From positions 1,876,001 to 1,940,000 of the forward strand of contig NC_089458.1 of assembly GCF_026210795.1 (NCBI RefSeq): a stretch of 64,000 nt of DNA. Reading direction: 5' to 3'. Source of the stretch: Rhizophagus irregularis. Its lineage: Eukaryota > Glomeromycota > Glomeromycetes > Glomerales > Glomeraceae. Positions 12,318 to 60,000 of this stretch are shown here, piece after piece (positions within the stretch are counted from its first letter, which is position 1; each line of letters begins with the position of its first letter). The notes beneath the pieces were generated by a model that saw only the letters and a program-made list of their open reading frames with translations, had not been told where the DNA came from and made no database searches. The position numbers were made by a program, and so were the translations under genes.

Positions 12318-13204
12318 ATGTAAAGTACCAAAATAATTTGGGATGTCATAATTGAATTTAGAATTCTACTTATAATTATGGCAGCTCAAAATAATTTGAG
12401 TGGCATTAGAGATGTGCTCCGGTGAAATCTGTTCAATCCATCATCCGATCCGATCAAAAAACGAATCATCTGGATTAAGAATGAACGGATTGCGGATAAT
12501 CCGGATGGATCTGTTGGATAACATCAGATTGATTGGATGTTACACAGATGACCAGATTGACCGGATTGATCAGATAATCTGGTCAAATTCAAACCTTTTT
12601 TTTTTTTAACATAAATGTTTTTTTTTTTAAAAAAAACACCTTTTTTTCTTGACTGGACTTTGACGAATTTTGAACGACTTGGACGGCTTGAATTTCAAAA
12701 AGTAACATCAGCAAGTTTGAAAAGTGTTGATTCACTCCAATATACGCGTTGATCAACACCAGCTAGTTGTTCAATGCGTTTTACAATATTAATCAACACT
12801 CGTATACTGGAGTATATCAACGCTTAATGTTAATATACACGTCATTCAACTCTAATGTGTAGTTCAACACATTATGCATTGTTGTTCAACGCCATATATT
12901 AACATATATTATATATATTTTAAATTAAATCAAAATTATATTTATTTTTACTTACCTTAGGAACCGAACCAAACACCTCAACTTACACTATTATTTATTT
13001 CACGATCTTAACCACTGCACTATTTAATTCAAGTATATATTTATATATATTAAACTTAATATTTAAAAAAAAAATTATTTCGGCAATTGCGTAATGTACT
13101 CTATATCTATCACGTGATACTAGAGTAATAATTACCGCTGCGGCAGCGCTGCAGCTGCAGTATAACAAAAAAAAATCAAGCTTTTTTTGGCAAAGCTTAA
13201 TTTT

Positions 13205-13375
13205 TTTTTTGCTTCGTTCTCCCCCTTCCCTTTCATTTTTTCATTACCCTTTCGTTATCCCCTTCCCATTCGTTTTCCCATAACCTTCTCTCTTTCCATT
13301 ACACTTTCGTTCTCCCCTTCGTTCTCCCCTTCCCTTTCGTTTTCCCATAACCCTTTCGTTCTCCCCTTCATCCCT
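13205..13375. repeat. C/T-rich minisatellite (CCCTTTCGTTCTCC-like)
   Basis: Pure pyrimidine runs with recurring TTCGTTCTCCCCTTCCC and TTTTCCCATAACC units. It lies just before the hairpin array. A similar C/T-rich tract precedes the array at 44.23 kb. Open frames through it are low-complexity artefacts. Confidence 0.7.
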
Positions 13376-13539
13376 ATAAAAAGTTTTATCCAAAAACTAT
13401 GTTAACTCCGTAATATAAGGTCATTAATTCCTGAAATATGAGCCTTATACGGAAAAATGAACTTTTGGTAAGTTTCGCAACGAAACTGCGAAACTACTTT
13501 TTCATTCTTTAACGAAACATTTTTTAACGTTTCGAAAAT

Positions 13540-16180
13540 ATTATTCTTTTTTTTTTTAATCGGAACGTTGGCTAACGTTCCGATTTATTATTTTTTTTAT
13601 TAATTTTTTAAATCGAATGTTGGCTAACATTCCGATTTATTATTTTTTTTTAATTTCTTTAATCAACGTTGGCTAATGTTCTGATTAATTTTTTTTTTTC
13701 ATTTTTATCCAGAACGTGAAAACGTTCCGAAATTTAATTATTTTTTTTTAATTTCTTTAATCGGAACGTTGGCTAATGTTCTGATTAATTTTTTTATTTT
13801 CATTTTTTATTCAGAAAACGTTCGAAAAACGTTCTAATATTTTTTTAATTTTTAATCGGAACGTTGGCTAACGCTTCCAATTAATTTTTTTATTTTCATT
13901 TTTTATTCGAACGTTGAAAAACATTTCGAAATAATATTTTTTTAATTCTTTAATCGAACGCTGGATAACGCTCCGATTAATTTTTTTATTTCATTTTTTA
14001 TTCGGAACGCGTTGAAAAACGTTCTGAAATAATATTTTTTTTTTAATTTTTAATCGGAAGCGTTAAGGTTGCGTTCCAATTATTTTTTTTATTACATTTT
14101 TTTAACGTAAACGTTGAAAAACATTTCAGTAAATAACTTTTTTTTCTTTTCTTTAATCGGAACATTGGCTAACGTTCCAATTATTTTTTTACTACATTTT
14201 TTAACGAAAGCGTTAAAAAAGCGTTTAAAATAAATAACTTTTTTTCATTTTATTTAATCGGAATGTTCTAACGTTCCAATTATTTTTTATTTCCTTTTTT
14301 TAACAAACGTTGAAAAACGCGTTTCATTTAATCTTTTTTTTAATTTCTTTAATGGAACGTTGCTAAGCGTTCCGATTATTTTTTATTTCCTTTTTTTAAC
14401 GAAACGTTGAAAAAGCGTTTCATTTAATCTTTTTTTTAATTTCTTTAATCGGAACGTTCATAACATTCCGATTATTTTTTTTATTACATTTTTTAACGAA
14501 ACGTTGAAAAATGTTTCGTAAATAACTTTTTTTTTCTTTTTTTTAATCGGAACGTTGGCTAACGTTCCGATTTTTTTATTTTTTATTCTTTTTTTAACGA
14601 AACGTTTTTAACGTTTTGTTAATAACTTTTTTTTCATTTTTTTAATCGGAACATTGGCTAACGTTCCAATTTACATTTTTTTTCTTGTTTTAATGAAACG
14701 TTTTTAACATTTCGTTAATAACTTTTTTTTTCATTCCTTTTAATCAGAACGTTGGCTAACGTTCCGATTTTTTCATTTTTTAACGAAACGTTAAAAAACG
14801 TTTCTAAAATTTTTTTTTTAATTTTTTGTTTTTTAATGAAATGTACCTAACGTTTCAATTTTTTATTTTTTTTTAGGACCGCGGCTTTCTGGATGGCTCA
14901 CGGACGGGAATTTTGAAGGTAAACCTTTAAAATTTTTTTAATTGTTTGTCTTTAATGAAACGTGTCTAACGTTTCGATTTTTTGTTTTTTTTAGGACTGC
15001 GGCTTTCTGGATGGTTCACGGAAGGGAATTTTGAAGGTTTACCTTCAAAATTTTTAATTTTTTATTTTTAACGAAACGTATCTAACGTTTCATTTTTTTA
15101 TTTTTTTAGGACCGCTTCCTGGATGATTCACGGACAGGTAAAATTATTTTTTTTTAATTTATTTTAACGAAACGTGACTAATGTTTCGTTTTTCTTTCTT
15201 TTTTAGGTCCGCAGATTTCTTTTTCTAAACGGGATTTCGAAGAACTTTAATGTTATGGTAAGTTTCGCAACGAAATGTTGTGAAACTTCATTTATTTTTT
15301 AATTTTTTTTTTAGAAACGTTTACTAACGTTTCTTTAAATTCTTTTTGTGGGTCTTTTTTTTGGGAAGCAGGAAAAAGGGTAAGTTTCGAAGCATTTTGC
15401 TTCAAAATTTTTTAAAAAATTTTTTTTTTTTAAATTTCTTTTATAAGGAAACGTTTTTAACGTTTCCTATATTTTCTTTGTGTAGGACTTTCGGCGTGTT
15501 CAAACTTTGGATCTTGGATATTGTAAGTTTCGAAGGGTTTCCCTCGAAATTTTAATTTTTTTAATTTTTTATTAGGAAACGTTTACTAAATGTTTCCTTT
15601 ATCCTTTTTTTAGGATCGGAAAGTTTGGAACAGAAGAATGATTGGGTAAGTTTCGTAATGTTTCATTACGAAACTTAATTTTTTTTATTAGGAAACTCTT
15701 ACTAATGTTTCCTTTATTCTTTTTTTAGGTTTCAGGAAAGTTCTAACTGAACGTTTCTCCTTTTTTTATAGGTTCGGTTTCTGGGAATATGGAAATTCAG
15801 ATAATGTAGGTTTCGTAACATTTTTTCGTTACAAAACCCATTTTTTTTATTTTTTTAATTAGGAAATGTTTACTGACATTTCCATTTTCTTTTTTTATTA
15901 AGCTTCGGATTTTAAATTGCGGATGGTAATGGGTAAGTTTCGCAACGAAACGTTGCAAAACTTTATTTTATAATTTTTTTTTTAAGAAACGTTGACTAAC
16001 GTTTCTTTTCTTATTTTTGTAGGTCTACGGATTTTCTGGTAGACAAAATGGTAAGTTTTACAATTTTTGCGAAACTTAATTTATAGTTGACTTTTTTTAG
16101 AAAACGTTTGTTAACGATTCCTTTTTTCTTTTTTGTAGGCTTTTTGAAATATGAATCAGATTGTGTAAGTTTTGTTAACG
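13540..16180. repeat. Array A: hairpin and mini-intron-like tandem repeat
   Basis: Roughly 100-bp units. The first half (to about 14860) alternates T-rich tracts with perfect hairpins such as CGGAACGTTGGCTAACGTTCCG and GAAACGTTGAAAAACGTTTC. In the second half, most units add the run TTTTTTTAG, then about 40 bases (for example GACCGCGGCTTTCTGGATGG), then a GTAAGT- or GTAAAC-like donor. The hairpin loop often holds GGCTAAC or TACTAAC, placed a few tens of bases before the AG. This is intron grammar repeated in tandem. No long frame runs through it. Confidence 0.75.
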
Positions 16181-16719
16181 AACCTTTTAATATTGTATTT
16201 TTTTTTAATCGAAACCCTACCTTGTTATGGTTGTATCACTAGGGGCGCTATGTCAACGGAAATTTAGTACGTTGATCGCTTAAAAATCCATGGCAATCCA
16301 ATTATAACAAGAGTTTTAAACATTTGACAATTTACATTACTGAGAAATATCAATTTGTAGTGTAGTTAGATAGATAATGAATGTATTTTTATTGTACTAT
16401 TACTACTATATATATAAATAAATTTACAATATTTTACGATTAATAAAATTTATATGTTGCTATACGCATTTTTAATATCGATATACGCGTTTTTATACAA
16501 TGTATACACGTTTTTAAACTATCGTTATTTTACTATGTGTAGTTTTACACTTAAATGAGTGTTGATTTACGCGTTTTTCAATGTTTTTAAGTGGCGTTGA
16601 TTGACAAAGGGTTCGTTTCCCTACGTTTTTTGGTGTTGAGCAACACATGGCGTTTTTCAACACTTTATACGCCTGTTTAAAACTTGCTGATGAAGTGTAA
16701 ATTTCTTTTTCTTTTGTCT

Positions 16720-18200
16720 TGGGAACGTCACTAAACGTTCCTTTACTTTATTTCTTTAGAAGACGCCTGCCTGGAACTCAATTTCGGCTTGGGCTATAAA
16801 GGTAAGTTGGGGAGGGTAATTTTGATTTTTTGTTTGTCTTTAGGAATGTCATTAACGTTTCTTTTGCTTTTTTTCTTTAGGGGACGCCCTCCCAGATTTG
16901 GATTTCGGTTCGGATTATAGAGGTAAGTTGGGGGAGGGTATTTTCAGGTTTTTTTTGTCTTTTGGAACGTCATTAACGTTCCTTTTGCTTTTTTTCTTTA
17001 GATGACGCCCTTCCTAGACCTGGATTTCGGCTTGGGCTATTAAAGTAAGTCGGGGAGGTTATTTTTGGAGTTTTTTTTGGTTTTGGAAATGTATTAACGT
17101 TCCTTTTGCTTCTTTTCTTTAGGTGACACCCTTCCTAGACCTGGATTTTGGCTTGGACTATTAAAGTAAGTTGGGGAAGTTATTTTTGTTTTTTTTTTGT
17201 CTTTAAGAACGTCATTAACGTTCCTTTTGCTCTTTTCTTTAGATGACGCCCTTCCTGGACCTGGATTTTGGCTTGGGCTATTTAGGTAAGTTGAGAGAGG
17301 GTGTTTTGCTTATTTTTTTTTTTAGGAACGTCATTAACGTTCCTTTTGCTTTTTTCTTTAGGTGACGACCTTCCTAACCCGGATTTCAGCTTGGACTATT
17401 AAAGTAAGTTGGGGAAGTTATTTTTGGGTTTTTTTTTGTCTTTGGGAACGTAACTAACGTTCCTTTTGCTTTTCTTTAGGTGACGCCCTTTCTGGACCTG
17501 GATTTTGGCTTGGGCTATTAAAGTAAGTTGAGGGAGGGTGTTTTGCTTATTTTGTCTTTGGGAACGTAACTAACGTTCCTTTTGCTTCTTTTCTTTAGGT
17601 GACGCCCTTTCTGGACCTGGATTTGTTTCGAGCTTATTAAAGTAAGTTGGGAAAGGGTTTTTTATCTTTTTTTTGTCTTTGGGAACGTATTAACGTTTCT
17701 TTTTTTTTTTCTTTAGGTGATGCCCTTCCAAGACCCTGGATTTTTGAGTTGATAACTTTATTAGTCTCTATTACTGCGAAAGTCGAGAGGATCTTCTCTG
17801 AAATTAATGGTAAACTTATCGCAAAACTCAATACCAAAATCTCTAATTAATTCACCACACGTCTATCCTTGGCTTGGGTTATTAAAGTATGTTGGGGAGA
17901 GTATTTTTGGTTTTTTTTTTGTCTTTAAGAACGTAACTAACGTTCCTTTTGCTTCTTTTCTTTAGGAGGACACCTCTTGGACCTGGATTTCGGCATGGGT
18001 TATAAAAGTAAGTTGGGGGAAAGGTATTTTTGTTTTTTTGTTTTTAGGAACATAATTAACGTTCCTTTTGCTTCTTTTTTTAGGAAGACACCTTCTTGGA
18101 CCTGGATTTCGGCATGAGTTATAAAGATAAGTCGGGGAGGAGATTTTTTTGTTTTTTTAGTCTTTGGATAGTCTCTTCTTTTTTTTCTTTAGGGGTCTTC
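16720..18200. repeat. Array C: about 118-bp mini-intron/micro-exon-like units
   Basis: About twelve units. Consensus order: GGAACGTCATTAACGTTCC hairpin, T-rich tract, CTTTAG, then about 43 bases (GTGACGCCCTTCCTGGACCT, then GGATTTYGGCTTGGGCTATT), then AAAGTAAGTTGGGG, then the next hairpin. The GTAAG-to-TTTAG distance is about 75 bases, the same size as the real introns of the kinase gene here (72-111 for most). The 43-base segment is not a multiple of three. One unit is interrupted at 17745-17868 by a piece of hAT coding sequence. Confidence 0.8.
17735..17855 (+). pseudogene. hAT transposase dimerisation-domain fragment inside array C
   Basis: The frame reads from the array unit (DALPRPWIF) straight into ELITLLVSITAKVERIF, SEINGKLIAKLNTKIS and a stop at about 17850. 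The pattern 'hydrophobic-VSIT-A-VERIFS...N' matches the conserved C-terminal dimerisation motif of hAT transposases (usually 'A.SERvFS'). Only about 35 residues remain. A GTAAAC follows within the coding part, so this could once have been an exon end. The array unit and the hAT sequence being in one frame is a direct observation; its meaning is inference. Confidence 0.55.
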
Positions 18201-18639
18201 AAACCGGTTCGATCCAAATCTTAAACTTTTTATAAATATTGTGTCAACTAATTTGTTAAAAACCATTTGTAATAACGTAAAAATAAATACTATGTTTATT
18301 ATTAAAAAAATTCTAATTGTTAATTAATATTAATAAAAAGTATTATTAAGTAGAAAAAACTGAATTCGGATTCATCGGATTTACCGGATTGACCGGATTA
18401 TTCAGATATCTGGTCAACCATCCGGTCAAATTGGTGAGCAAGTATTGACCGGATATCCAATGATCCATCCGGTCAATCCGATGAATCATCCGGATCAATC
18501 TGAATCCGGTCAAATTTCGGATGGATGACCGGATATCCGGATTGACCAGATTCAGAGTATACCTCTAGGTGGCATATATACAGCAATCCTTATTTCGCAT
18601 ATGGGATTTGGAGATGTGTATGCTTACTCTTCATCATTT

Positions 18640-27860: not shown

Positions 27861-27869
27861 CGGTTTAAT

Positions 27870-31480: not shown

Positions 31481-31519
31481 TTATATTTTCTTCAATATAT
31501 TGGAAACAGTGACTATGAT

Positions 31520-31984: not shown

Positions 31985-31986
31985 TA

Positions 31987-32995: not shown

Positions 32996-32999
32996 TATA

Positions 33000-35329
33000 A
33001 ACACTAATTTATAGTTTAATTTCTTTATTTAAGCTTCAACGCATACGATCGTATTGATCCAACGGCAGAGTTATTAAGGAAAAAACCACCAAACTTAAAA
33101 TGTAAAAAGATTTCAGATAAATAAACAGTTAGGTAAAAGTTACCCAATGGCACACCAAGCGCTATGTCAATATAGGCACTTGAAAAATTCAACCGTTTAA
33201 CCAAAAATATCCCGGCTTATGACATACTGACGAAAAGCATTATTCAAGACAACATGAAATAATGATGATGTTGATAATAATGTCGAAATAACAAAAAAAG
33301 AATAAACAAAAGGAAAAAAGAAAAATAAATTTAAATCAAAAAATAAAAATCAAAAATAAATTTTACAATTATTACACTTTTGCCTAAATAGGTTTATCGT
33401 AAAAAATACTTAACTGTATCAATAAATCAGAATTCAAACATTTTCATTTAATTTTTTTAAAAATTGATTGATTAAATTAAAAATATCATTGCTCGATAAA
33501 GTTATGATTATAGCTATTTTTTATTAATAAACAAGTTACGGTACTGATTACTTTATTACAAACAATTTAATTACTTGATAAGGTATTTAATAAGATATTT
33601 CAAACTGATTAATAAAATTTTCTATATTAACATACGATAAATTAGATACATGAGCTAAATAATGAATATTATTTTTTTCAAAAAAATTAAATGAAAATAT
33701 ACACAAATTTTTTAAGTTTTTGCATGTAAGTCAAATTAAATTACTATATGCTTAAATCAGTAATCATAACCCAAAGTTGAAGATTAACCGGGTGGCCTTT
33801 GTTTAGATTCAGCGACACTTCCTGTTTCGATGAGGTGCCACAGGTACGCTTTAAGAAATCCCATGATAATAAAGGATAAAAGATATTCGAAAATACTGAT
33901 GGGCGAATGAACATAGGATACGATTTAATAATCTCAAATAGAAAAATAAAAATAAAAATAAATAAAATAAAAATAAAAATATAAAAAATAAAATAAAATA
34001 AAAAAATATTAATTGACAGCATCCCTCGTTCCTTTCTGGAATTTCATTTCCGACTAAATTATTATTGTTTGTAATTTGATCCATTTGAATCCACCATAAA
34101 TTTCTCGTCGCAGGGCGAACTCTTTATTAGATTAAATTTATAGCTTCATCACCAAATGGCTGCGATGTGTTTAATGATACGGCAACCTGTTTAATTCATT
34201 TTTAAATGAAAGAAACGTGGCCATAAAACCCATTAAAAAGGTAGGCTACAGAAAGTAATGCAACCTACCTAACCTAACAAGTAGGTCTAAGGGTTAGGAA
34301 TAAAATATACCCTAAACCTACGCAGTTGGTATGGAAATAAAAAGTTTACAAACGGAAGTTTCAGGGACTGTGCCTGACGACAAAATGGGTGAGGTAATCA
34401 GGACTTTTTTCCTCTAATCCGTTCTGAATTATGTAGAAAAACATTGTTATCGTACAAAGCATATCAACGAAAACGTCTCTCAAAGAAATTAATCAATAAA
34501 GAATATACTTGGGCAATAGCCGATCTTCATCGTCACCCTATAAACTCCAAAAGGACAGAGATCAGCGCAGGCATTTTGGCTTACGTATTTCTTTAAAGAT
34601 TAATTAAATTGAAAGATAGGATCCAAATTCAATTACGACTGAATCGACCTCTCCGGTTATCAAACTTCCATCAGAAGTGCATCGCTAGAATCAAAGATAC
34701 CAATAATCACCCTTATCAGTAACGATCGAACTAAAGATGTTGGAGAAATAAAATCCGTCATTTATATGAAATTAGTTTTCATTACAATTTATTAATGACT
34801 GCAGAAAAATATCTCCTTAAAATTTATTTTTTTTCAGGTATCCTGGCTATATGAAAAGATTCCAATATGGTATTAGTACAATACACCTTATACGCCATTT
34901 TGCAAATTCGCAATAGTTTACAAAGAAAAAAGCAAATCGTATTTATTTTTCATTATAATTAATTACAATGTTGGCTTCCAGAAAATCGCGTAATTTGAAT
35001 AATTTGTATATGCTTTGGATAACGGGTTTGAAGTTTAGGTATTCTCTGGCCGCACTATGATAATATTAAATAAACACACAAATTTTTTTAAAGATCGTAC
35101 AAATATCGGTAACCCATATATATTATATCTGATTCGCGACTAATAGTTTGGATATCTAATAATTTGCAATTTACATTTTTTTAACCATATATTTGAAATT
35201 TACATTATGTGACAAATCGGGGTACCCATATGTTGTTAATATGTAAAAATGCCCGATATGTACCTAATTATCACCATATATGTGCAAATTCGATACGTGC
35301 GTGTGTGACATGCATCGTTTTTCGAATTC
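33000..35329. other. Mixed region, short unexplained coding-like stretches, no gene model
   Basis: 33190-33740 is A/T-rich. 33744-34084 (minus) holds TCGTSSKQEVSLNLNKGHPV and WWIQMDQITNNNNLVGNEIP. 34330-34480 (plus) holds MEIKSLQTEVSGTVPDDKMG. 34500-34720 (plus) holds WAIADLHRHPINSKRTEISA and LKDRIQIQLRLNRPLRLSNF. None can be linked by splicing or assigned to a family. 35100-35300 contains GGTACCCATATG-type motifs related to the cluster at 21741-22040. Confidence 0.35.
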
Positions 35330-36480
35330 CATGTAAGTTTTTAAAAATTTCAAACTTTTTAAATTTATTTATTTTTGATTTTTTATTATTTAATTTTATT
35401 TTAATTTTTTTTCTTTTTTTTTGCAGGTATTGAACTTTCTGAACTCTGAATGACGGATATGATCGGTAAGTTTTGAAAGTTTAGTTTACTTTTGAAATAT
35501 TTCTTGAAATTTTTTTTATTTTTGTTTTGAAGAAACTAACCATTTCTTCTTTTGTCTATTTTGTAGAAATTGTCTTTAAGATTTTTTGAATCAGCTTTTC
35601 AAGTAAGTTTCAAAGTTTTTCTTCAAAACTTTTTTTAAAAATTTTTTTTTTTAAATTGATTTTTTTATCAGTAGGCCAGGATTTATAAATTAAACGTTAT
35701 AACTCATAATGGATCAGTAGTTGCCGAGAATTGCACTCAGTAAGGCACAGAAGCATATGACGATGAAGATGAACCTGATATATTTTGATCCAACTTGAAA
35801 CGAAACTTAATTTTAAGGTAGTGGAGAATGGAAAGCGGGGTTTTTTTTATTTTAACTTAAGAAATAAACTAACATTTTTTTCATTATTTTTTTGCAGTGA
35901 TGTATCAGAGCTTATTGGCTTGAATACTACAGAAACTGGACTTTAAAGTAGTGAGAAATGGGAAAGGGGAGAATTTTTTGTTATTTTAAATTTAAGAAAT
36001 TAATTAATATTTTCTCATATACCTTTTGCTTTTGTACATGTGAAGTGATGATGTAGTGATTTTGTTAGAACCAAAATTTTTATCTTGGTTTACGTATTTA
36101 TTTTTTTATTTTATAAATTGGTTTAATAACTCTGCCTTTCTTTCTTTTATATAGACTGGCAACATCTGACGAATCTGGAACTTTTATCTGCATAAGTATT
36201 CGAATTTTAGTTTTTTTCTTTTTTTAATATTACGAACTACTAACCGTTCCTTTTCTTTTTTTCATAGATTCGAAAGGGGGTTTCCAAAGAACTGAAAGAA
36301 GTAACCAAGATTCGTAAGTATATACAAATCTTAACAGATTGGTAAGTTTCAAAGTTTCACTTCGAAACTTTTTAATTAAATTAATTTTTTTTATTAATAC
36401 TTTTATCTTTTTATCATAAGTTGTATTTTCTGGACATGAAGATTGGTAAGTTTCAAAGAATAAGTTTGAAACTTCTCTTT
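35330..36480. repeat. Array with mini-intron-like units, copy inside the 16.8-kb element
   Basis: Successive segments sit between T-rich tracts ending in AG (TTTTTTTTGCAG at 35427, TTGTCTATTTTGTAG, TTTTTTTGCAG near 35898, TTTATATAG, TTTTTCATAG) and donors (GGTAAGTTTTG, AAGTAAGTTTC, GTAGTGAGAAATGGG, GTAAGTATA). The segment GGCTTGAATACTACAGAAAC is shared with the 44.23-kb array, which identifies the family. Hairpins such as GAAGAAACTAACCATTTCTTC carry CTAAC. Units are more diverged than in the 44-46 kb copy. Confidence 0.65.
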
Positions 36481-37301
36481 ATCCCAAAGTATTGAGTTAA
36501 TTTAATAAACTTTAGTATGTAGATTGTTATACTAGTGTAATTTAATGTATATAGATTGTTTAATATAGTGCAATTTAATAAAATAATTTGTTATTTAATA
36601 ATATTTAGCATTGTTATATTAACATATATAAATAATAGTAAAATATTGATATGTACATCGTAATATATAGGCAATGAACATTTTGAATTGGCGATAAATA
36701 TCAAATATTATACATCAGTAAGACATTGCAAGTGTCTGGCGTATCAGCATTTTTACGATTACACTGTTTCATTGATGTATATTTGATGAATATTTTTCCT
36801 GCGACTTGATATGATACCGCAATTCACTTTTATATATATAATCAATATAAAAAAGTGAATCCCAATATCGCAACTCACTTTTATTATATAAAATCAATAT
36901 AAAAAAGTGAATCCTAATATCGCAACTCACTTTTATTATATAAATCAATGTAAAAAGTGAATTATAATACCATCACTTATATTATATAAAATTATATTTT
37001 CAGGTCAACAGGTCATTCAGGTTATAATTTAGTGCTCCTAACAGATCAGATCAGATCAGATTTTACTTAAATTCAATCTGATCTGAAATTAATTAAATCT
37101 GATCTGATCTGATCTGAATCAGATCGGTTTTAAATTTAATATGAATCTGATCAGATCTGATCTGGTCTGAATCTGATCTGATCTGATTTGAATCTGACCA
37201 AATCTGATCTGATCTGAATCTGATCTGAATCTGAAATAAATATAAGACTCCTCAGATAACTTTTTGCAAATCGACTCTAAATTTCAAAAAACAAGTAGAT
37301 T

Positions 37302-42364: not shown

Positions 42365-43796
42365 TATAAACCTCTGAATGATTCTAGTTCTAGTCACTGT
42401 TTCAATCAATCTACATTCAGCTCCTGAATAAATCACGATTTAATTTATTAGTTTTGACCATTTTTGCTGAGGATATCCCAAAATCCATTTTTGGTCAGTA
42501 CCAGTTTTGATTTAAAATATAGCCCATGCTATAAATCTATAAATCAATTTAAATCATGTTTAATTTGGGTACATGGTTCCATTCTACTTGATTTACCAAT
42601 TAGAATAATCAATTTCCAACCCATTCCATTTGATTGCATTTTTCACTGATTTCATCTGGTCCTGAATTTGATCTTGGGTCCTGGAACAGTTGAATTTTCC
42701 AATTCCGTTGAGTATCCACAAAGATAAATTCTAAACATTTTTCTGTGTCACATTTATCATAGAGATTTTGTTTTAAACCATGTATTGGTGGTCCTGTATC
42801 CCACACTGATTATTAAACGCTTTAAATAATAAATATTTTAAATTGCTATAACTATAAATCAGTTCAGTGTGTTCATGCCAGTTTCAATATAATAAATTGA
42901 TTATCTTATTTGTTTGTCTGTTTACTGTCTGTCAAATGATGCAAATCATATTTTCTAATACCATATAACTGTGTCATTTTGTAGCACTGGCTGTTCTTCA
43001 GTCTGGCTTAAAATAGTCCTCATTGTATATATTTACCCTGCAAACCCATGTTATGCTTAAATAAAGCATGATGTTTTTACAAAATAGCCCATCAGTCAGC
43101 ATTCCTTCCTTTCCTGCCTCCTTACCCTGACTTCAAATTCTGAATGTACTTAATACAACCCCACACATAAAAAAATAAATCACATTCTAATTGTCTGTGC
43201 CACAACGAACGTCCTTCATCCTCAATTAATCCAGAAATCTATCACATTTTCTGCCTTGGTAACCCCATGCACCAAAAACACAATTAGCAAAATTATTAAA
43301 TGCACAGGTTCCTCCCAGTCCTCCCTACCCCACCCAGTAATAAGTCATTGCACCAAGCAAAATGAAAAAGAAATGAATAAACAAAAAAAAATAAATAAAA
43401 ACCCTCTCATCTTTGTCACACTTTAAAAACCATCAAAAAAGTTTCAAAAGAATTCAATGAAACAAAAAAATAATAAAGACACAAAAAATAATTTAAAACT
43501 CCTCTCAATTTCCCTTAAATTTGCAGCTTTTCAACCAAAAATACTACAAAATGAAAAAAAATAAAATTAAAAAATAACAAAATCCTTCCCGGTCCTTCTC
43601 TTACCTCAATTTCAAAAGTCCGGCCATACTTTTCGTCCGGCAACTTACAAAATCAAAAAAAAAAAAAAATTTCTATTAAAAACAACTTGCCGTCCGGTTC
43701 TCCTTATCTGGCTACGACTCCATTTTAAAAAGTTCAGTCATAATTTTTGTCCGGAAACTTCAATAAAAAGAAAGAGATCATCAGACGATTGTACTA
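42365..43796. other. Less A/T-rich DNA with C-rich plus strand, no gene recognised
   Basis: Composition changes here: 42900-43750 is richer in C (CCTCCCAGTCCTCCCTACCC and similar) and lacks the long T tracts seen elsewhere. Three phrases GTCCGG..A(C/A)TT near 43620, 43690 and 43750 repeat at about 60-70 bp. No coding or RNA gene found. Confidence 0.4.
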
Positions 43797-44099
43797 CATC
43801 ATAAGTCACGGGAAAATGTTTATTACATGACATTTTTTTGTGTATCATGCAGATATAATATTCATTATTTTAAATGAATATGTAATATTTAATATTAATG
43901 AAAGATCATCAATTTTAGATTTTTATCATGATGTGCAGCATTAAATAATGATAATTCAATATTTATCAAATTTATAATTTTTTTTATATTAGCGCACTAG
44001 TCATGATCTACGATTAGACATTGGTCAAATAGTGCACTAATTAAAACGTCACGCGTTACGCGTATTAAAGTTTAAAAAAGGATCATGATCATCTTTTTT

Positions 44100-44225
44100 T
44101 AAACTTTTCATTCTCTTTCATCCTTCCCCTATCGTCCTTCCTTTCCCCCTTCCATTCCTTATCTTCCTTTCCTTTCCTTTTGTCCCTCCCTCCCTTTCGT
44201 CCTTCCCTCCTTTTCTCACGCCTCT
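44100..44225. repeat. C/T-rich tract (TCCTTCC, CCCTTTCGTCC)
   Basis: Nearly pure pyrimidine on the plus strand, positioned between a small hairpin and the array, as in the 12706-16692 element (13205-13375). The equal placement in two elements with different sequences suggests a functional part. Confidence 0.65.
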
Positions 44226-44229
44226 TTTT

Positions 44230-45920
44230 CTTGGAAGTAATGTAAGTTTCATTTCGAAACTTACATATTTTTTTTTAATTTATTTTTTTAATTTTCTTTT
44301 TTTTTTAATTTAAGAAACAACTTAACATTTCTTTTATTGTTATTTAAAAGTACACTATAGAGGACGCCGGCTTGAATACTACGAAACCAGACTTTAGGTA
44401 GTGAGAAATGGGAAAGGAGGGAGATTTTTGTTATTTTATTTTAAGAAACGAACTAACGTTTCTTTCATTATTTTTTTTTTGTAGAACGAGGACGCCGGCT
44501 TGAATACGAAACTGGACTTTGAGGTAAAAAACTGGGAAGGGGGGATTGGAGGATGGGGACTTGAACCAAGATCGTAAGAATCTTGGTTTTATTTATTTTT
44601 TTTTATTATTTTGAAACGGTTACTAATAACCGTTCTTTTCTTTTTAGATTTCGGGTGGACTTCTGATTTTCGGAAAAGGAGAAACCAAGATTCATAAGTA
44701 CGTACGAATCTTGGTTTTTTATTTTTATTTTTTATTATTACGAACGGTTACTAATAACCGTTCTTTTTTTTTGTTTAGGTTCGGGTGGGCTTCTGAGTTC
44801 CGAAGAACGGAAGACCAAAGATTCGTAACGGTAAGTATAAATCTTTTTTTTTATTTTTTATTTTATGGAACGGTTTACTAACCGTTCCTTTCTTTTTTTT
44901 ATAGGTTTGGTGAGCTTCTGATGAATGGAAACTAAGATTCGTAAGAATCTTGGTATTTTTTTATTTTATGGAACGGTTTACTAACCGTTCCTTTCTTTCT
45001 TTTATAGGTTTGGTGGGCTTCTGACGAACGGGGAACCAAGATTCGTAAGAATCTTGGTTTTTATTTATTTTTATTATTATTATGGAACGGTTTACTAACC
45101 ATTCCTTTTTTATTTTTATAGGTTCAGTGTCTCGGAAGAATGGAAAAACCTAAAGATTCGTTGGTATTAGTACGAATCTTTTGGGGTTTTTTTTTATTTT
45201 TTTTAATATTACGAACGGTTACTAACCGTTCTTTTCTTTTATTTTTTTTTTATAGGATCGGGTGGTCTTCCAAGGAACGGAAAATAATAAACTGAGGTTA
45301 GTAAGTATTTTACTACAAACTTTAGGATTTTTTTAATATTACGAACAGTTTATTAACCGTTCTTTCTTTCTTTTTTTTAGAGGATCAGGTGGATTTCCGA
45401 AGATCAGAAAAAGGAGAACTAAGGTTCGTAAGTATTATATTACGAACCTTAGATTTATTTTTTTTTAATACTATGAACGGTTCTAACCGTTCTTTTTGTT
45501 TTATTTTTTAGGTTTCGGGTGGGCCTCCAATCTTCGGATAAAGTGGAACCAAGATTCGTGAGTACGAATCTTGGTTTGTTTATTATTTTTTTTTAAATAT
45601 TATGGAACGGTTACTAACCGTTCTTTTTCTTTTTTTTAGGTCTCAGGTAAATTTCCGAAGAATGAAACAAGAAGATCAAGATTTGTAAGTATATACAAAT
45701 CTTAACCGAACGGATTAGTAAGTTTCGAAGTTTTACTTCGAAACTTTTTTTAAAATTTTTTTTTAAATTAATTTTTTTATTAATACTTTTTTTATCTTTT
45801 TATTGTTAGGTTGTACTTCTTGGACAAGTTTCGAAGAATAACTGAACTTCAAACCTTTTTTTGTAGGTCCTGGAGTATTTAGTTAATTAATATAAAGATT
45901 GTAAGTTTCGTTGCGAAGCC
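44230..45920. repeat. Array D: mini-intron/micro-exon-like units, 100-132 bp period
   Basis: About eleven units. Typical order: GGAACGGTTTACTAACCGTTCC (perfect stem, loop TACT, containing TACTAAC), T-rich tract ending in ATAG or TTTAG, then about 45-60 bases such as GTTCGGGTGGGCTTCTGA..., then AAGATTCGTAAG-type donors, often inside a second hairpin (ACCAAGATTCGTAAGAATCTTGGT). Starts of the AACGGTT stem are at about 44612, 44743, 44869, 44971, 45085, 45213, 45343, 45475 and 45606. TACTAAC is the strict branch-point consensus of budding yeast and a good match to fungal CTRAY. Confidence 0.8.
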
Positions 45921-46239
45921 TACTGTCTTTTTTTCATTTTCTTCATTTAACAGTTGTTACTTTTAATAATAGAAAAATTTAGCTAATATTATTGTTATAG
46001 TGTATTTAATAAAATAAATTCAATAATATTATAAATTTAATATGATGTTTATTATCTTTAAATAATGTACATCGTTAATAAACATTAAAATTAGGTGATG
46101 CACATCAAATATTGTGATATCGGTAGTACATTGCAGGGTCCGATGTTCAGCGTTTCTTTATAATGTACATCTGTGACCGATATACATTTGATGAACATTT
46201 TTCCCGTGACTTCCTGATGTACGCAATTCATCTGATAAT

Positions 46240-46492: not shown

Positions 46493-46654
46493 AGTTACAG
46501 GCTCGAGCTTTTTTGATTGCCTGACCCTTAATAACTGGCTTGAGTTTTCCTTGCCGCTGGCCGCAGCTACCCACCAAGCCAATTTAATCATGGCTTGGCT
46601 TAGCTCAGCTTGAAAAGCTTGAGCCAGCTCATGAGCCAGCTTGGCTCGTGTAGA
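46493..46654. repeat. Cluster of AGCTTGGCTC/GAGCCAGCTTG motifs ending in a hAT-like terminus
   Basis: Motifs AAGCTTGAGCCAGCTCATGA, GGCTTGGCTTAGCTCAGCTT and others fill the stretch. It ends GTGTAGAGCACTA at 46654; on the other strand this reads TAGTGCTCTACACGAGCC, sharing TAGTGCTC with the 37030 hAT end. The LINE remnant begins immediately after. The other end of this element was not located. Confidence 0.5.
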
Positions 46655-49600
46655 GCACTACTTACAACACTTAATCAAGAAGCTTGTGATCCCTTTATCT
46701 TAAAATCCTCTGCATTATTGGACTATTCTCCAATTGAATATGAACAACATAATCTTCCTATTTCACATATTACATTTATGGATGATTCTACTTTGATTGC
46801 TTCATCTAAACGAGAAATTGAAGATCGTCTTTCCATTACTGCTGAATTTTATACTTTAAATAATACTCAAGCCAATTCAGCAAAATATATCCTTCTTTCT
46901 TCTGAACAATCTTCTCAAACTATAATGTTTGATCTTTTCCCATCTCCTTTAATCCCCATTTGTTCCCTTACTTTAAAGGCGTTAGCCTTATCCAAGTCTT
47001 TCCATTTTTTAGGTGTCTGGTTTTGCCTTTTGGCTTCCTCTCATTTTGTTCACGATCAATGTTCCTCCATGGTTAAAGACATGGCTATTTTACTTAGTCC
47101 TAAAAAACTTTTGGCACAACACGTGGCTTACCTTTATAATGTTGTTTTACTTCTGAGATTAGAATTTCGCCTACAAACCACATTATTTGTTGAATCTACC
47201 ATTAATCGCATGGTTTCTCCAATGCTTTCTCTTATTCGACAGAAGGCTGGTTTTGCTTCAGTCACTCCTCTTTCTGCGCTCTTCACATTGTTATCATTCT
47301 CAATCCAACAAGCATTTGGTCGATTTTTATCATCCCATGTGGCTTCATGGCAAAGAATTTTTTCTCACCCTTTATATAAAACCTTTGCCAATTATATGAT
47401 TACTTACCTCCAAGGTTTTCTGGATTGTGATGCCTGTCCTTCTACTATTGATTTAGAACCATGGTCTCATACCTTTTCCCTTCAAACACATTCTTTATTT
47501 AATTCTCTTCTCGATTAAATATCACGTGGTCTCTATTGTTCCGACCTCTGAGAAAAGATCTACATCCAGCGATTCCATTCCGGTTTATTTTACCAAAAGA
47601 ATTATTTACTTCCATGAAAAATGTTTGGAAGAATTTCGGCACTTGTTTTCTTGTTCAATTGATTACTCCATGTGGCTCTCGACTCCTTTCATGGAAAGAT
47701 TTACACTTTCTTAAACGAGTTTCGAACAAAGGATCTGTGCCTGCTTGGTTAACTTATTTATTTAATTTTGTTGTTATTTCTAATTCTTCTTCTTTTTTTG
47801 TTTTACCGCAATTTAGAATATCTAATTCCTATACTGTAGCTTCTATCCTTTCTATAGATATAAGTTGAAATTATTTGTTTAATCCACAATGGGCTATTTC
47901 TTTTAATCGCAATACTAACTCTTTTCTTGTTAGCCGTGTGATCATTACCTATCCTGCTCCGCAAAATGAAGCTCTTATTTCACATTGGATTGCGTCATCT
48001 GTTGATGACTTATTATCCGATTTTACTGCATGCCAAGGTTGTGCCTCTGCTATCCCGCGATCTTCTACTTCCAAGACATTGGTTAAACGATGTCCCTCTG
48101 AAAAGTGCTTTTCTTATGTGCCTTTATTCACTCTTATCCGTTACCCTACGAAACCTCGTACATATATACATGCGGACACTCGTTCAGTTTTACTTTCCGC
48201 CTCGTTAGGCTATGCCAAATCTCTATTGTTATTTCATCTTTTTGCTCCAGTTCGACCACTTCCTACGAGCAATCAAGTGTCTAGGATTTCCGATATCCAA
48301 CTTCCTTCTTCAGTGTCTACACTCTATATCGATGGCTCTTTCCTTCCTCTTTCTAGTCCTTCGATATCTTCGATGGCTTATGCATGGACTGCTATCGATT
48401 CTGATGGATTTATTCTTGAATCTCATTATAACACCATTCCTTCTCTTTTTCCTTCTGCATTGCGTTCTGAAATTTTTGCTTTATTGCATGGATTGGACTC
48501 CTTCCCTCAAAATTCCAACGTTACTGTCGCCACTGACTGTGCTCAATTAATTTCCTTATGGTCTATGTATGTGGACGCTCCCTTCATTCCTAGAATGCTT
48601 AAAGAATCCAACCATCTTTTATGGTCTTCGGCATGAGCTATTATTTCACAAAAAAATCTGGAAGTTACTTTATTTAATTAAGGTTCCTGCTCATGCTAAC
48701 GATTCTTTGAATAATCACGTTGATGTATTAGCAAAAGCTGCTCATACAGACTCGCGTCTTTCCTTTCAGTCGCCTGCACTTTTGGCTCCTTGCATTTTAC
48801 AATTTAATTCTTTACCTGTGGATATGAATATTCAGAAATTCATTGGAGAAATTTTTAATGCCAAGAGCCTTTTGACTCTTGCTTTACTACCAAGATTCAA
48901 TCTTAATTCCTCTACTTCAGACATCGATTGGGCTTGTACTAAATTTTGTTTTAATAATAAACAATTACAATTTTCCCATCGAAATGGCCGCTCTGAATTT
49001 TGTGCTTTCTGTATCAAGATTTTATTGGATATGCTTCTGACACTCACAACTCTTCAGAAACGAAAGCCTCATGATGTCTATGATTCAAGTTGGTTCTGTC
49101 CTCAGTGCAACTCTTCTCCTGAGACTTTAGACCACTTATGGACTTGTCTTTATATTTTACCTGAATTTAGTCCTTTTAATACCTTCAAAACCCTTTTACT
49201 GGACCTTCAAACTATTTATTTAGAAAATTTTCTTTCCGCGATTCCTTTGAAACCTTTACCGGACTCCTTTATTGCGGAATTTACAACTATTGATTGTTGG
49301 GAATGTAACCCTCCTTCAAATTCCTATTTACGTCTTGCACGTGAACTTATACCGATGTCCCTTACAAGTTTTCTTAGAACCTATTTTTCACTGCCAAATA
49401 TTTGGTCTATCCTTGATACACCTTTATACAATTTTCATTTTGACCTTTATATCCAAATCTGGTTGTGCCGCTCTGTTTTCTTTCATCATTGGGAATCAGC
49501 TCAAGGCATTACTAATAAAATGAAATCGTCCGCTATTGGACCTTCTTCTATTTTTCATCCTTCCTCACAAATTTCTCTTGATTTTTTGACACCTTCCCTG

Positions 49601-49975
49601 GTGACAGTTTCCTTGGATTCCTGGGTTTCTTGGGTTTCCTCTTATGTAATCCGTGGGGGATCTTGGATTTCGCACTTGGATTTTTGGTGCCGCTTAACAG
49701 TTCAGCCTCTACTTAGAGTTTCTTTTTGGTAACGGATTGGATCTTAGGGCATGCTGGATAGTTGACTCACACTGGCTTTTGGGTAAAGTTGGGGTATGCG
49801 TTTCTGTAATAGTTTAGTTTTTCTTTACTTAATTTTATTTTGTTTAAATTTCTTTACTTGTATGAATCGTGAAGCTAGTTCATTTTATTTTTTATGTTTA
49901 TTTTTATATATTTAAAATTTGTAATATTGTTCAATTTGTTTCTTGTACTTTTCGTTTAAAATTATAATAAAAGAT
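46655..49975 (+). mobile_element. 5'-truncated non-LTR retrotransposon (LINE) remnant
   Basis: The coding part begins inside the reverse transcriptase domain right after the hAT-like terminus at 46654, and continues to the ORF end at 49732 plus a 3' untranslated stretch of about 240 bases ending near TAATAAAAGATAAAATCATA. 5' truncation is typical of LINE integration. No long poly(A) is present. The target duplication could not be set. Confidence 0.7.
46660..49732 (+). pseudogene. LINE ORF2 remnant: reverse transcriptase C-terminal part, RNase H and zinc knuckle
   Basis: 46660-47518: reverse transcriptase palm with FMDDSTLIA (the F.DD catalytic box) and FHFLGVWF. The endonuclease and N-terminal RT are absent. 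47500-48636, frame changed: LYIDGSFLPL, SALRSEIFALLHGL and VTVATDCAQLI carry the D-E-D residues of RNase H. 48680-49732, frame changed again: IKVPAHANDSLNNHVDVLAK supplies the last Asp; then CPQCNSSPETLDHLWTC, a C-X2-C-X8-H-X3-C knuckle. Breaks: a frameshift near 47505, an in-frame TGA at 47866, a TGA at 48634 and a frameshift near 48675. Restoring these would give one ORF, so decay is modest. The retained domain order fits RNase H-bearing LINEs abundant in Rhizophagus. Confidence 0.85.
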
Positions 49976-52065: not shown

Positions 52066-52324
52066 TCTTTTTTTGTTTATTTATCTAAATCAATACAAAG
52101 TACTGTTATTATAATATTAATAAAATCCTTTATTACAATTAACTACTTTCAGGCAAGATATGACGAATTTCAACAAGTTTTCACATCAGTAATAACTCAA
52201 AAGTATTAATTATTTTCTTAAAGATTCTATTTAAATATAGATTTTTAATTAATTATAATAATTAAAAAAATTATCATTCAAATTAATTAATTAAATTATT
52301 TATTATTAATTACATTAGAAAATT

Positions 52325-52560
52325 TTTTAAGATGTAGAACTGCAGAGATCTGTAAAATTAGCAGATCTCCATATTTTTTATATAAATTTATGTGGAAGTC
52401 TGTGATTTTGCAGATTTTCACTTTTTATTTTTTACAAAATTATGCAATAATCTGCAATTTTGCATGTTTCTGATTTTTTATGTATGCATTTCTGCAGAAA
52501 GTCTGCAATTTTGCAGATTTTTGCTTTTTTTCATTAAAATATCAATTTGATCTGCAATTT
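52325..52560. repeat. Cluster of CTGCAATTTTGCAG/GCAGATCT motifs, hAT-like subterminal region
   Basis: AGTCTGCAATTTTGCAGATTTTTGC-type units occur at least five times, alternating in orientation with GAAGTCTGTGATTTTGCAGA. It lies about 260 bases from the hAT fragment at 51783-52065 and may be an end of that element. ATAATCTGCAATATGCAGGA at 52890 may continue it. Confidence 0.5.
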
Positions 52561-53029
52561 CATCATTGATTTAATATTTAAACTTTGATTAACTTTAACT
52601 TGATTTAATACCTAAATGATTTTTTCTACAATACTCTTTAAAAAAAAAACTTTACAAGACTTTAAAAAAATTATTTTTTCTACAACACTTATTATTAAAA
52701 AAAAAAACTTTGTGAAATGATTTTTTCTACAACACCTTTTAGAAAATAATCTGTTAAAGATTCCAAAGAAAAAATATTTCTATTATTTTGTAAGCTTCGA
52801 AGCTTATCAGAGAAATTTTTTTTTTTAAAAAAAAATTTATTTGCAAAGTTCAGAATCTTTAAGGCAAATTCGTCCAATATTTGGCACATAATCTGCAATA
52901 TGCAGGAGTTTTGGACTAAAAAGATGTCAGACTCTTTTATCTCCTTTCAAAAAATACATTTTACAGAATGTCAAATGTATTCTATTTCGAAGGTATTTAT
53001 TACTTTGATATTAATATTATTTAATGAAC

Positions 53030-53960
53030 ATTAGAAAATGTTCGTTTTATTAGTTCAGAACATAAAAGGTACGTCCTGGACTCCATTTAAAAAAAAAAAT
53101 TTAATGAAACATTAGCTAAAGTTCGTTTTATTTTTTTTTTGTAAGTCCAGAGCGCTGAAAGTACCAGTTCTGGACTCTATTTCAAAGGTAAAACTTCAAA
53201 ACTAATATTTTTTATATACCAGACATTGTCCAATGTTCAGTTTTATTATTTTCTTATCCTGAATGCTAAAGAACGGATCTGGACTCTTATTTTGAAGGTA
53301 AAACCTTTACCTTTGAAATTTTTTTATATTTTTGTTTAACGAACGTCACTAATGTTCATTTTTCATGTTTTTAGGTTCTGGCATTAAAAAACAGCTCTGG
53401 ACATTTATTTCGAAGATAAAGACATTTGAATAATTTTATTTATTTAACAAATTTATTTTTTATTTTTTTTTAAGTCCTAGACGCCAAAGTACAGCTCCAA
53501 ACATTTATTTCAAAGGTAAAATTTACCTCCAAATTTTTTTTATTTTTATTTATACCTATGAACGTTAATTTATGTTCGTTTTTACATTTTATAAGTCCTG
53601 GATGCCAAAGAATGGCACCAGATTCTAATTTCAAAGGTAAAATTTACCTTCAAATTATTTTTTTTAATTTCATTTCAACAAACATTACTAAACGTTCATT
53701 TTTATATTTTGTAGATTCTGAACGTCAAAGAATGACTCTAGACGTTAATTTCAAAGATAAAACCTTTATCTTCAATTTTTTTTAATTATTATTTAACAAA
53801 TGTTAATTAATGTTCGTTTTTATATTTTATAAGTCCTGGATGCCAAAAAATAGTTTCAGACATTAATTTTGAAGGTAAAATCTTTACCTTCAATTTTTTT
53901 TTATATTATTATCTAACGAACGTTAATTAATGTTCGGTTTTGTATTTTATAGGCTCTGGA
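53030..53960. repeat. Array E: mini-intron-like units, about 115-bp period
   Basis: About eight units. Order: AACGAACGTTAATTAATGTTCGTT hairpin (loop region TTAAT or CACTAATG), T-rich tract ending in TATAAG, GTAG or GTTTTTAG, then about 45-50 bases (TCCTGGACGCCAAAGAACGG, CTCTGGACTCTTATTTCAAA), then GGTAAAACCTTTACCTT, a donor inside a second hairpin. Units are degenerate (TAAG in place of TAG in some), so several predicted acceptors would not work. No coding frame crosses units. Confidence 0.7.
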
Positions 53961-54129
53961 CATCAAAGAATGCTTTACTAAAAATGGCCAATTTTTTGAA
54001 ATATTTTTATAGACCTAGATACAATAGCTTTCAAAACAATTGTGCAATTATTTTGTAAAATTTTTAAAATATATCAAGATATATTTGAGGTATTTTTGAG
54101 ATTAAAATATTAAAATAATATCAAAGTTA

Positions 54130-57012: not shown

Positions 57013-60000
57013 CTAACTCTCTTCATCTTCTTCCATAATCATTGCTGGCTGTCTCCGCGAACTTCTCGATGTTAAAGGACTACCACGCCGTGGATTTATC
57101 CCATTATTATGTAAGAACATCATCTGTGAAACATTAAATGGCATATTTGGTGGTGAAGGTGAAGAATCTCTTCTAAAACTAGATTCACTACGTCTACTAC
57201 TAATTGGAATGTCTATACCATTGTTCATTGCTCCATTTGTATTACTACTACTATGATGATTATCTTCAATATTGTCTTCATTAACAATGTTCAATGATGA
57301 AGCTGTTGAAGGTAAAGAATGAGAGCGGGAATGTAATAATTTATTAAAAGGTTTTGACAAATGTGGTGATGAAGGTGTTGGTGAAGATGATCTCGGTGAT
57401 TCTGGCGGTGTTGACATTAAATGATTCATTACAGATTTTGTAGTAGTTAGCGGTTTTTCAACAGGTGATACTTTCTCTTCTAATTGTTTACCTCTTCCAG
57501 ATGATGTCTGTAATACATCGGAGTGAACTGGTGGATATGACGCTAGACGATTATGACTCTTTTTATTACGAAGTGGAATATCTACATCACAATCTGTTGG
57601 GGATAAAGGTGGTGAAACCGGACTTGTTGGGGATTGTGATAAATTTCTTGGTGGTGAAATACTTATCTGAATAGGTTGACGTGATGGTGGTGAAGGGAAT
57701 GCAGGTGGGTTCATGGTGGTATCATCGGGTTTGATTACTGGTGAATCATTCGGAGATGATGAGGCTGAAGTTGACGGTGAGGGTGATGCTGTACGCGACC
57801 TTGGATTAGATGTAAAAGTGCTTGCAGCATCAACATATTCTGATTCGTCACCATCGTCACTTGATGCTAAAGTCTCTTCTGATATCTTGTGTGGAGATAC
57901 ATCAATTTTGTGTAATCCTATATATTCTTGTTTAGATATTTGAGATGGATTAGTTCTGATATTATTAGGTGGTGGTGTTGGTGGAGGTGAAGCTAATATT
58001 ATTGTTTTAGATTTTGAAGATTCTACAACCATTAATTGTTCATCTATTGTGGATTTTTCTTTTATAATCTTGGATTCAAATCCATCAAGAATAATGTTTT
58101 CTATCGCTCTTTTCTCAAAAGTGTCCCTATTTTCCTGATTATTAATAATATTATTTTCAGATGAACCAGAACCGGAAGCAGCATTAAAATTGTCCACTAA
58201 AATATTTATTGAATTAGCTCCTATGCTTCGTCGTTTAACCTGCTTACGCCCCCAGGATGAACCTGGATATGCAAATGGATTTCGACGATTTTTAGTAAAC
58301 AAAGTAGTTGTTCTAGGTCTCGCTGCCGGTGGTGTTCCGGGTATCGGTAACATACTTGTAGGTGAATTCTGTGAAAGCACAACAGAAGGTGTAACAGGAG
58401 ATATCGTTATAGGTGCAGGTGTAGTACGTTTATTCCCTTTGCTTCCTTGTATTGAGCCTCTCTTCTTCTTTTTATCTCTCAATGAATTACGATTTATTGA
58501 TGATCTTCTTGATAGGTTAATATTTGTACCATCATAACCTGGTGGTGTTTTATTACCACTTCTTCTGTTGAATCGCGATTTTGTATGTACTAAATCAGCT
58601 GGGACTACTACACCACTTTCCGCCCAATTTAGCATACTTTTCTTATATGCATTATTAGCGTCTTTTGGATTATTTGATCCGACCCACCATCCCTTGATCG
58701 TTGACAACGTTGACAAAAATCCTTTCTTCCGATGATTACTCTTCCCATTAGGTATAGGCATTGGCGCGGTATTACTAAGCGGTATTGGACTAACTGAACG
58801 TGAACTTATAGGGCTGGTAAATGAGGAATATTTTTTTGGTGATAAAGGAGGAGAAGCCATGGCAGTAATTGTGGTTAAAACGGGCTCAACAGCCTCTGGA
58901 TGCGATAATATTAACGATTTACGCCTTTCACGTGAAGCAGGAGCTGCATGATAAGTTTTTGGTGGTGGTGTTGGCGGTATTATTTCTTCTGAGTTTTCCA
59001 CCACTTTTTCTTCTTCTACGTGATATGTTCTATCAAGTTCAGCATTATTTATTGGTGAATCAACTTCATTTTCCTCTTCGGATTCTTCCTCTATATTTAT
59101 TTCATCATCACTCGTACCAACAGCTACATCTACTGTTGTTACAGAACTCTGTGCTCCTTCAATTTTTTTCTTTTTTCTTAATTTAGTTAGCAAAAGCCAC
59201 CAAAGTCCACTTGCGGAATCAACTTTACCTTCCAAAACACTATTTTTAATCCCTGCTATGTCAAATCCTAAGCTGTCTAGTTTTTCTAGTAATTCTTTTT
59301 CTTCGGGCGTTGTAAATAAAACTTTTTCATTAAAAGCCTTACTATCGATTGAAGATCTTCTAGATGTTTTTGACGTTGAAGGTCCCCAAGTTTTTTGCAT
59401 CGATGAACTAGGTGCAGGTGTAAAGACTTTCATTCGACTTTTAAAAGCTGAGGGTGCAATGTCATTATTATTATACCGACCATATCGAGTATATGTCATC
59501 GGATAATTATTTTGAGATGAAGTGTTTTGTTTTGTTAAAAAAATTTCTTGTCGTTGTCGTTCAAGATGACTTGTTGCATCTAGATGACTATCTTTGGAAT
59601 GTGAGATAACTGTTATTTCTTTTGTAGGTTCCTTCACACTATTTTCTTCTTCGATTGATGATATTGATTCGTCATCGGCTACTTCATCTGTAGCCCAATC
59701 ATCATCATCATCATCGTTGTATTCTTCTTCCTCATCTTTTATTGTAAACCATGCATGTTGCAAAATCTGTTTTAATGTTGGTCGCTCCGATGGCTCCAAT
59801 TGCAATATCGATCGTATGAGGTCTTTTGCTTCTGTAATTATAATTGTAATAAAAAATCAATTATACAAATTATCACACACTGTTCGCATAATTCGACTTT
59901 GCCTCTTTGCTTTTTTACTATAAATACTATAAATACCGTTTGATAAAAACTCTTCCATTTCATATTCGCCCTTTATTATTTTGTGTTTCATTTCATTTTC

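Follow-up and report, generated by a model that had tools for sequence, protein, structure and literature searches.

Trains of predicted spliceosomal introns carried by non-autonomous DNA transposons in Rhizophagus irregularis

The locus described here raises the question of why one strand of fungal DNA should repeat, unit after unit, the signals of a spliceosomal intron. The window, that is, the whole stretch analyzed, comprises 64,000 nt of Rhizophagus irregularis DAOM197198 and holds tandem arrays of this kind (A to E), whose relatives were sought in the genome (146.7 Mb, 32 contigs). The best explanation, to which we assign a probability of about 0.6, is that non-autonomous DNA transposons carry one-way trains of spliceosomal introns between non-coding micro-exons, and that these trains are read and spliced as non-coding RNA. 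Judged from sequence, a train would comprise ~9-20 introns, mostly of 67-110 nt, with micro-exons mostly of 24-65 nt, and would be the main cargo of its element.

Intron grammar of the arrays

Array D agrees with its description in the first-pass annotation: its units hold GTAAG-type donors, TACTAAC or CTAAT branch sites within perfect palindromes (e.g., GGAACGGTTTACTAACCGTTCC), a T tract and TAG. The units measure ~103-130 bases and yield 13 predicted introns of 67-109 nt, mostly with GTAAG-type donors, between exons of 36-91 nt; the first and the last two introns are the least certain. The same order of donor, branch site, T tract, TAG and short exon, on a single strand, characterizes array B and the second half of array A, and the micro-exons of these three arrays measure 24-65 nt, with some longer. 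Within element A, the stretch 13540-14860 contains paired palindromes with few clear acceptors, and intron chains run from ~14900. The claim that four other arrays share the architecture of D stands for B and the second half of A; C and E are decayed and score weakly.

Arrays were evaluated with a chain-of-introns score, whose position weights were made by hand from the fungal consensus and not trained on host introns, and each window array was compared with 25 dinucleotide shuffles, a control that the first-pass annotation had proposed. On the sense strand, D scored 178 (shuffles: mean 34, standard deviation 13, maximum 71), B 160 (33, 11 and 67) and A 138 (23, 13 and 55), all above their shuffles. 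The result was weak for C, at 37 (15, 7 and 27), and for E, whose score of 30 ties its best shuffle (10, 10 and 30). Antisense scores of the five arrays were 5-31, and both these and two control stretches lay at about the shuffle level. Furthermore, 258 non-array strands of 1.5 kb scored 15 ± 13 with a maximum of 66, compared with 125-151 for 1.5-kb windows in A, B and D.

The scoring was extended to 12 complete elements with CATCAG ends (A and D of the window, L019, L020, L022-L024, L026-L028, L031 and L032; 20 shuffles each), which reached 106-196 in sense against a best shuffle of 72 and 5-40 in antisense. Predicted introns number 9-15 in these elements, and the extracted sequences of three B elements gave 12, 19 and 21, L040 having the most. 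Thus, a GT donor, a branch motif and an AG acceptor occur together at fungal distances above chance in A, B, D and their complete relatives, and weakly in the window copies C and E. The distance from the branch A to the AG downstream is 21-30 nt in 11/13 predicted introns of D, 10/10 of B and 8/11 of A. Many predicted donors have no G at position -1 (ATTC/GTAAG), and some read GTACG or GTGAG.

It is important to consider that units picked by their splice score make a measure of splice-column conservation circular; these were discarded, and units anchored by exon similarity were used instead. A donor-like motif with a branch-to-YAG pattern anywhere in the unit was present in 77/90 of the B units and 55/79 of the D units, the other 24 D units failing this loose check. 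Identity at the donor columns of B was.94 for G, 1.00 for T,.97 for A,.97 for A and.97 for G, the median column being.91. In D, donor column +5 fell to.56, the other donor columns stood at.92-.99 and the median column at.85. These exon-anchored units, together with the grammar, the strand polarity and the spacing, support at the level of prediction the earlier reading of the arrays as introns of 60-85 bases strung around micro-exons. A genome search found one 20-mer of D 78+76 times and its reversed-pattern control 0 times.

A host gene in the same window offers a comparison. The protein kinase gene at 57013-61513 (minus strand), with a long low-complexity tail, has four trusted introns of 72-111 nt, a size similar to that of the train introns; three of the four lie inside the Pfam kinase match obtained once they are removed. 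Their donors are GTAAGT, GTAAAG or GTACGA and their acceptors TAG or CAG, and they have no strong T tract. Six further predicted introns of the gene are untrusted, and the four trusted ones are too few for training a splice model. Elsewhere in the window, 46604-49732 (plus strand) contains open-frame fragments that look by eye like reverse transcriptase and RNase H; none of the three pieces compared with Pfam gave a match.

Transposons that carry the arrays

The carrier transposons, which the first-pass annotation did not mention, are identified here (Table 1). Element D ends in CATCA..AAGTCACGGGAAAA with TA on either flank, and a 95% copy lies at C1:4081351-4083598. Scoring of D-type ends in the genome gave at least 40 5' ends and at least 40 3' ends; 27 pairs on the same contig and strand were recognized by eye, 24 of them spanning 2.3-4.4 kb and three ~6.7, 9.5 and 18.3 kb. 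Of the array-bearing elements with CATCAG ends, 12 were read at both ends, A and D included, and in all 12 the 2-bp flanks were identical. Target-duplication and whole-element counts exclude the one-ended loci L001, L008-L011, L021, L025, L029 and L030, and L002, L004, L005, L006, L007, L012 and L013 are duplicates of other loci. The C+T-rich stretch before the first donor of D and the AATAAA after its last unit would fit a Pol II transcription unit.

Table 1. Positions of the carrier elements, arrays and predicted introns in the window
Feature	Position	Strand	Description or basis
Element D	43797..46219	+	Non-autonomous DNA transposon carrying array D; termini, flanks
Target duplication of D	43795-43796 / 46220-46221		2-bp TA
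5' terminal inverted repeat of D	43797..43825	+	CATCATAAGTCACGGGAAAATG...
3' terminal inverted repeat of D	46180..46219	-	CATCAGGAAGTCACGGGAAAAATGTTCATC on minus strand
C+T-rich stretch	44110..44232	+	Right before first D donor; possible fungal-type core promoter
D intron train	44242..46000	+	13 predicted introns; chain score
D predicted introns 1-7	44242-44350, 44401-44484, 44574-44647, 44698-44778, 44831-44904, 44941-45007, 45045-45121	+
D predicted introns 8-13	45170-45255, 45301-45380, 45428-45511, 45558-45639, 45718-45809, 45901-46000	+
AATAAA	46008..46013	+	After last D unit; possible polyadenylation signal
Array C	35333..36420	+	Decayed D relative; 3' end of its element near 36824
Array E	52313..53970	+	Decayed; CATCGG-like ends of a further family; L046 is an intact relative
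Element A	12706..16692	+	Non-autonomous; Plavaka-type ends CATCAGCAAGTTT...; target duplication AA
Element A intron train (core)	14919..16138	+
Element B	12407..18567	+	A nested within; hAT-like ends TAGAGATGTGCTCCG / TAGAGGTATACTCTG
Target duplication of B			8-bp, AGTGGCAT / GGTGGCAT, 7/8 matching
B intron train	16802..18083	+	10 predicted introns, 75-79 nt each; one 170-nt exon, the others 42-43 nt

Element A sits inside a GTAAGT donor of array B and splits it, and locus L014 represents the empty site, with the same B-array donor uninterrupted. An A-type end (TIR_A) was found 4.9-5.7 kb upstream, on the same strand, of 8 of the 123 Plavaka (PF18759) matches in the genome. The two of these eight regions that were examined, L048 and L049, hold 7.8-kb intact Plavaka elements with A-type sequence at both ends; the L048 element (81-7919) is 99.3% identical to the L049 copy, and their target duplications (AA in L048, AT in L049) are of 2 bp, as in the array elements. 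Of its 3987 bases, element A matches them solely through 1-371 and 3511-3987, and its middle, which contains the array, has no match in L048/L049. With the L048 element, identity is 88% in 379 columns at one end and 81% in 478 columns at the other. L048 contains Plavaka frames and an accessory frame on the opposite strand. The strand opposite the transposase reached a score of 143, its 9.9 kb holding 19 predicted introns, but the densest 1.5-kb window of L048 or L049 scored 40, below the maximum of 66 in the controls, so that this strand may have introns but no train. Since the intact Plavaka has no train, a train is not needed for transposition itself. With termini common to a PF18759-encoding element and a 2-bp duplication, element A is, by sequence criteria, a non-autonomous Plavaka derivative.

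The 3' end of D (173 nt, 94%) adjoins a second Plavaka gene set, L029, whose three transposase frames are 47-65% identical to those of L048 and whose accessory frame is 29% identical; the other D-type end was looked for at this gene set and not found. Element D is probably also mobilized by a Plavaka transposase, the link being through one end only. Other candidate partners were rejected. The long D-type elements (19989-36824 and C1:5317913-5336254) match each other in their interiors only in terminal array stretches, and the C1 interior looks nested and, by eye, Maverick/Polinton-like. The abundant Plavaka copies L033/L034, and likewise L035/L036, have no CATCAG[CG]AAGT end at up to one mismatch, apart from two CATCAGGAAATT sites in L035. 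L037 and L038 (C1:5318600-5335500) show a D-type element split by a stretch of this Maverick/Polinton-like appearance, with polymerase, helicase-like and packaging-ATPase-like frames, also by eye.

Element B belongs to a different kind of transposon. Its family ends are TAGAGGTRTGCTCCG, and the 8-bp duplication is exact in L014, L015, L042 and L043 and matches at 7/8 positions in the window copy and L040, these six being the copies with both ends; the one-ended loci L016-L018, L039, L041 and L044 stay outside the count. An 8-bp target duplication, TAGAG ends and short YARNG-type inverted repeats are what we take to be the hAT pattern, and we accordingly call B hAT-like. A 35-aa frame inside array B was considered as a hAT dimerization domain and rejected, having no hAT Pfam match; it has 8 matches, the window copy included, and links B to no hAT transposase. 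At least two kinds of transposon, Plavaka-type with 2-bp and hAT-like with 8-bp duplications, thus carry intron trains as cargo.

The element of array C has its 3' end near 36824, and a D-like 5' end lies at 19989, so other repeats are probably nested between. These two ends adjoin a 52-bp tandem repeat found at 11492-12121, 19731-19990 and 36814-36992, whose first block runs in the opposite orientation to the others. Beside the D-type array of L003 lies another tandem repeat (1740-2280), T-rich, CTTCCCCTTTCGTTTTTAG-like and of ~18-19 bases. The intact relative of E, L046, has 17 predicted introns and, with the antisense strand as its control, a score of 159 against 16. A CATCGG/CATTAG-like 5' end is common to L050, L051, L052 and the window copy of E; in L050, the sole copy with both ends, the flanks (TA and AA) do not match as a target duplication. 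In L052 (C3:60500-67800, reverse complement 5502-7230), array F has 13 predicted introns of 81-96 nt and exons mostly of 32 nt. Nearly all of its donors read CAG/GTGATTG, its branch sites are GCTAATTC-like and lie 27 nt from the AG in 13/13, and donor, branch and acceptor keep a fixed spacing.

The trains could nevertheless be neutral. A deletion derivative may have captured one or two introns that were then duplicated in tandem, giving units that splice in a train useless to the element. The units are indeed tandem duplicates with regular periods, their predicted number differs among copies, and window copies C and E have decayed. However, elements that differ in their ends and target duplications carry the same cargo, and in the B units anchored by exons the columns of the splice signals rank with the best conserved, the +5 donor column of D being an exception. 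On balance, we regard neutrality as somewhat unlikely.

Hairpins and the predicted RNA

Perfect palindromes enclose the donor and, separately, the branch site in array D and, by eye, in A; the second hairpin, around the donor (AACCAAGATTC-GTAA-GAATCTTGGTT), is an addition to the first description. Across all families, a branch stem score of at least 8 was reached by 37% of 204 unique contexts against 0% of shuffles, and a donor stem score of at least 8 by 27% of 233 unique contexts against 1% (one shuffle per context). These statistics leave out 15 duplicate or non-array loci (L002, L004-L007, L012, L013 and eight more). At 44927-44954, a C(GUAA)G hairpin has as its loop the first four bases of a D donor, GUAA, which we take to be of the GNRA tetraloop form. 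With the donor in such a loop and the branch site in another, the hairpins may tune the timing of splicing, and stable hairpins over both sites, as in D, could also hinder or block it.

Selection on the hairpins at the RNA level was looked for as a wobble bias in the stems, and none was seen. G-U and A-C mismatches numbered 15 and 16 in branch stems, 24 and 18 in donor stems, and 27 and 26 in another count; without a clear G-U excess, there is no clear sign of pairing kept at the RNA level. This bears on whether the hairpins are a source of structured RNA that feeds Dicer or works as a structured non-coding RNA, the introns being secondary. Three D stretches fold at z values of -6.1, -4.1 and -6.2, as such a source would, and small RNAs from young loci are abundant in R. 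irregularis according to the available text of PMC10234402. The stem mismatches speak against it, as do the z value of -0.1 for one B unit and the lack of any Rfam match in the window at the gathering score, and we consider this origin quite improbable.

Little credence is likewise given to the palindromes being sites at which a transposase or host factor binds the DNA, with an accidental resemblance to introns on a T-rich strand, although they are perfect, have several different arm sequences and carry stem mismatches that reveal no clear wobble selection. Dinucleotide shuffles that keep the T-richness give no chain, the B unit has no structural excess, and array F has its grammar at fixed spacing with no branch palindrome by eye. 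The first-pass annotation had offered a transposase-binding repeat as its alternative. Subterminal repeats of that type lie near the ends and are shared with the autonomous element; the arrays are central, not terminal, that of element A is unmatched in L048/L049, the related intact Plavaka has no dense array, and the same architecture is found in hAT-like elements, whose ends and target duplications are different, all of which disfavor the proposal. Since array F shows no branch palindrome by eye and the B unit no structural excess, hairpins are common but not defining, and the defining feature is the intron grammar.

Under our preferred reading of the arrays as intron trains, their splicing, a prediction from sequence, is strongly implied. 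When the predicted exons are joined, the longest frames reach 53-65 codons, no longer than in shuffles (mean 60-74), and the 42-43-base exons of B shift the frame, so the predicted product is non-coding. The earlier suggestion of a multi-exon non-coding RNA fits these frames. Conversely, the idea of self-removing DNA that hides an insertion in transcripts is unlikely, because the inverted repeats, several hundred terminal bases and the micro-exons would stay in the RNA. Among the best candidates scored with spliced-exon queries, there was no contiguous intron-less copy; matches longer than one exon were mostly of ~160-172 nt at 70-74% identity, and are read as two adjacent exons aligned across an intron.

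We infer the following course of events. A transposase encoded elsewhere would cut and paste the element via its ends (Plavaka for A, probably also for D), Pol II would read the train from the T-rich strand, and the host would splice the transcript into short exonic RNA without coding capacity. As the preferred reason for persistence, intron-dense transcripts would withstand RNAi or heterochromatin, leaving the element open. A silencing-resistant cargo is a reasonable explanation and the one we prefer, a plain by-product of tandem duplication being nearly as likely. The further proposal that trains are an adaptive cargo of unrelated DNA transposons, in which ten to twenty introns make a spliceosome-dense transcript, block RNA-directed silencing and hold the locus open for an outside transposase, is tentative and, as a whole, unlikely.

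Relation to known systems

Many introners derive from non-autonomous DNA transposons (Gozashti et al. 2022, PMC9860276). In the available part of that work, they share with the elements described here a non-autonomous nature, terminal inverted repeats, target duplications and spliceosomal splice signals; in contrast, an introner copy is one intron in a host gene, whereas one element here has ~9-20 introns and its own non-coding micro-exons. An introner as a whole is a precise intron of its host gene, while in the predicted structure of our elements the splice sites are internal, and terminal repeats and micro-exons are exonic and would stay in the RNA. Each unit might instead be a mobile intron that inserted repeatedly beside others, given the transposon origin of many introners and the hairpin-bearing ones described in Amoebophrya (PMC7789003, partial text). 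Nevertheless, each exon is repeated along with its intron at a single period, as tandem duplication predicts, and the signatures of mobility belong to the whole element, which makes repeated insertion very improbable.

The hairpin-bearing repeated introns of Amoebophrya and the stwintrons of Xylariales, in the latter with near-terminal inverted repeats, also have such repeats close to the splice signals, as here, with arms that join intron start and end (PMC7789003 and PMC12403724, partial texts). In D, by contrast, donor and branch site have separate hairpins, and the units stand in tandem within transposons. The Plavaka transposons of the CACTA/CMC/EnSpm group are prevalent in R. irregularis, and the available text of that account makes no mention of an intron-train cargo (PMC11075540). 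Element A has the same termini and 2-bp duplications as an intact Plavaka element, with the transposase region replaced by an intron train that the intact element does not have. Element B has the 8-bp duplication and TAGAG ends of non-autonomous hAT elements, and its body is an intron train. Among the matches listed for titles and abstract beginnings in the open-licence literature, intron trains inside transposons were not described, although an account of them may exist elsewhere.

Single introns are a known product of transposons. If RNA data confirm it, a transposon that consists largely of introns would tie selfish DNA to splicing in a new way. For annotators, intron trains could yield false multi-exon genes. 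Finally, because the trains recur in elements with different ends within one genome, they provide a testable case of introns shielding transcripts from RNA-based silencing, and this case arises in a fungus that has many unclassified repeats and makes small RNAs in abundance.
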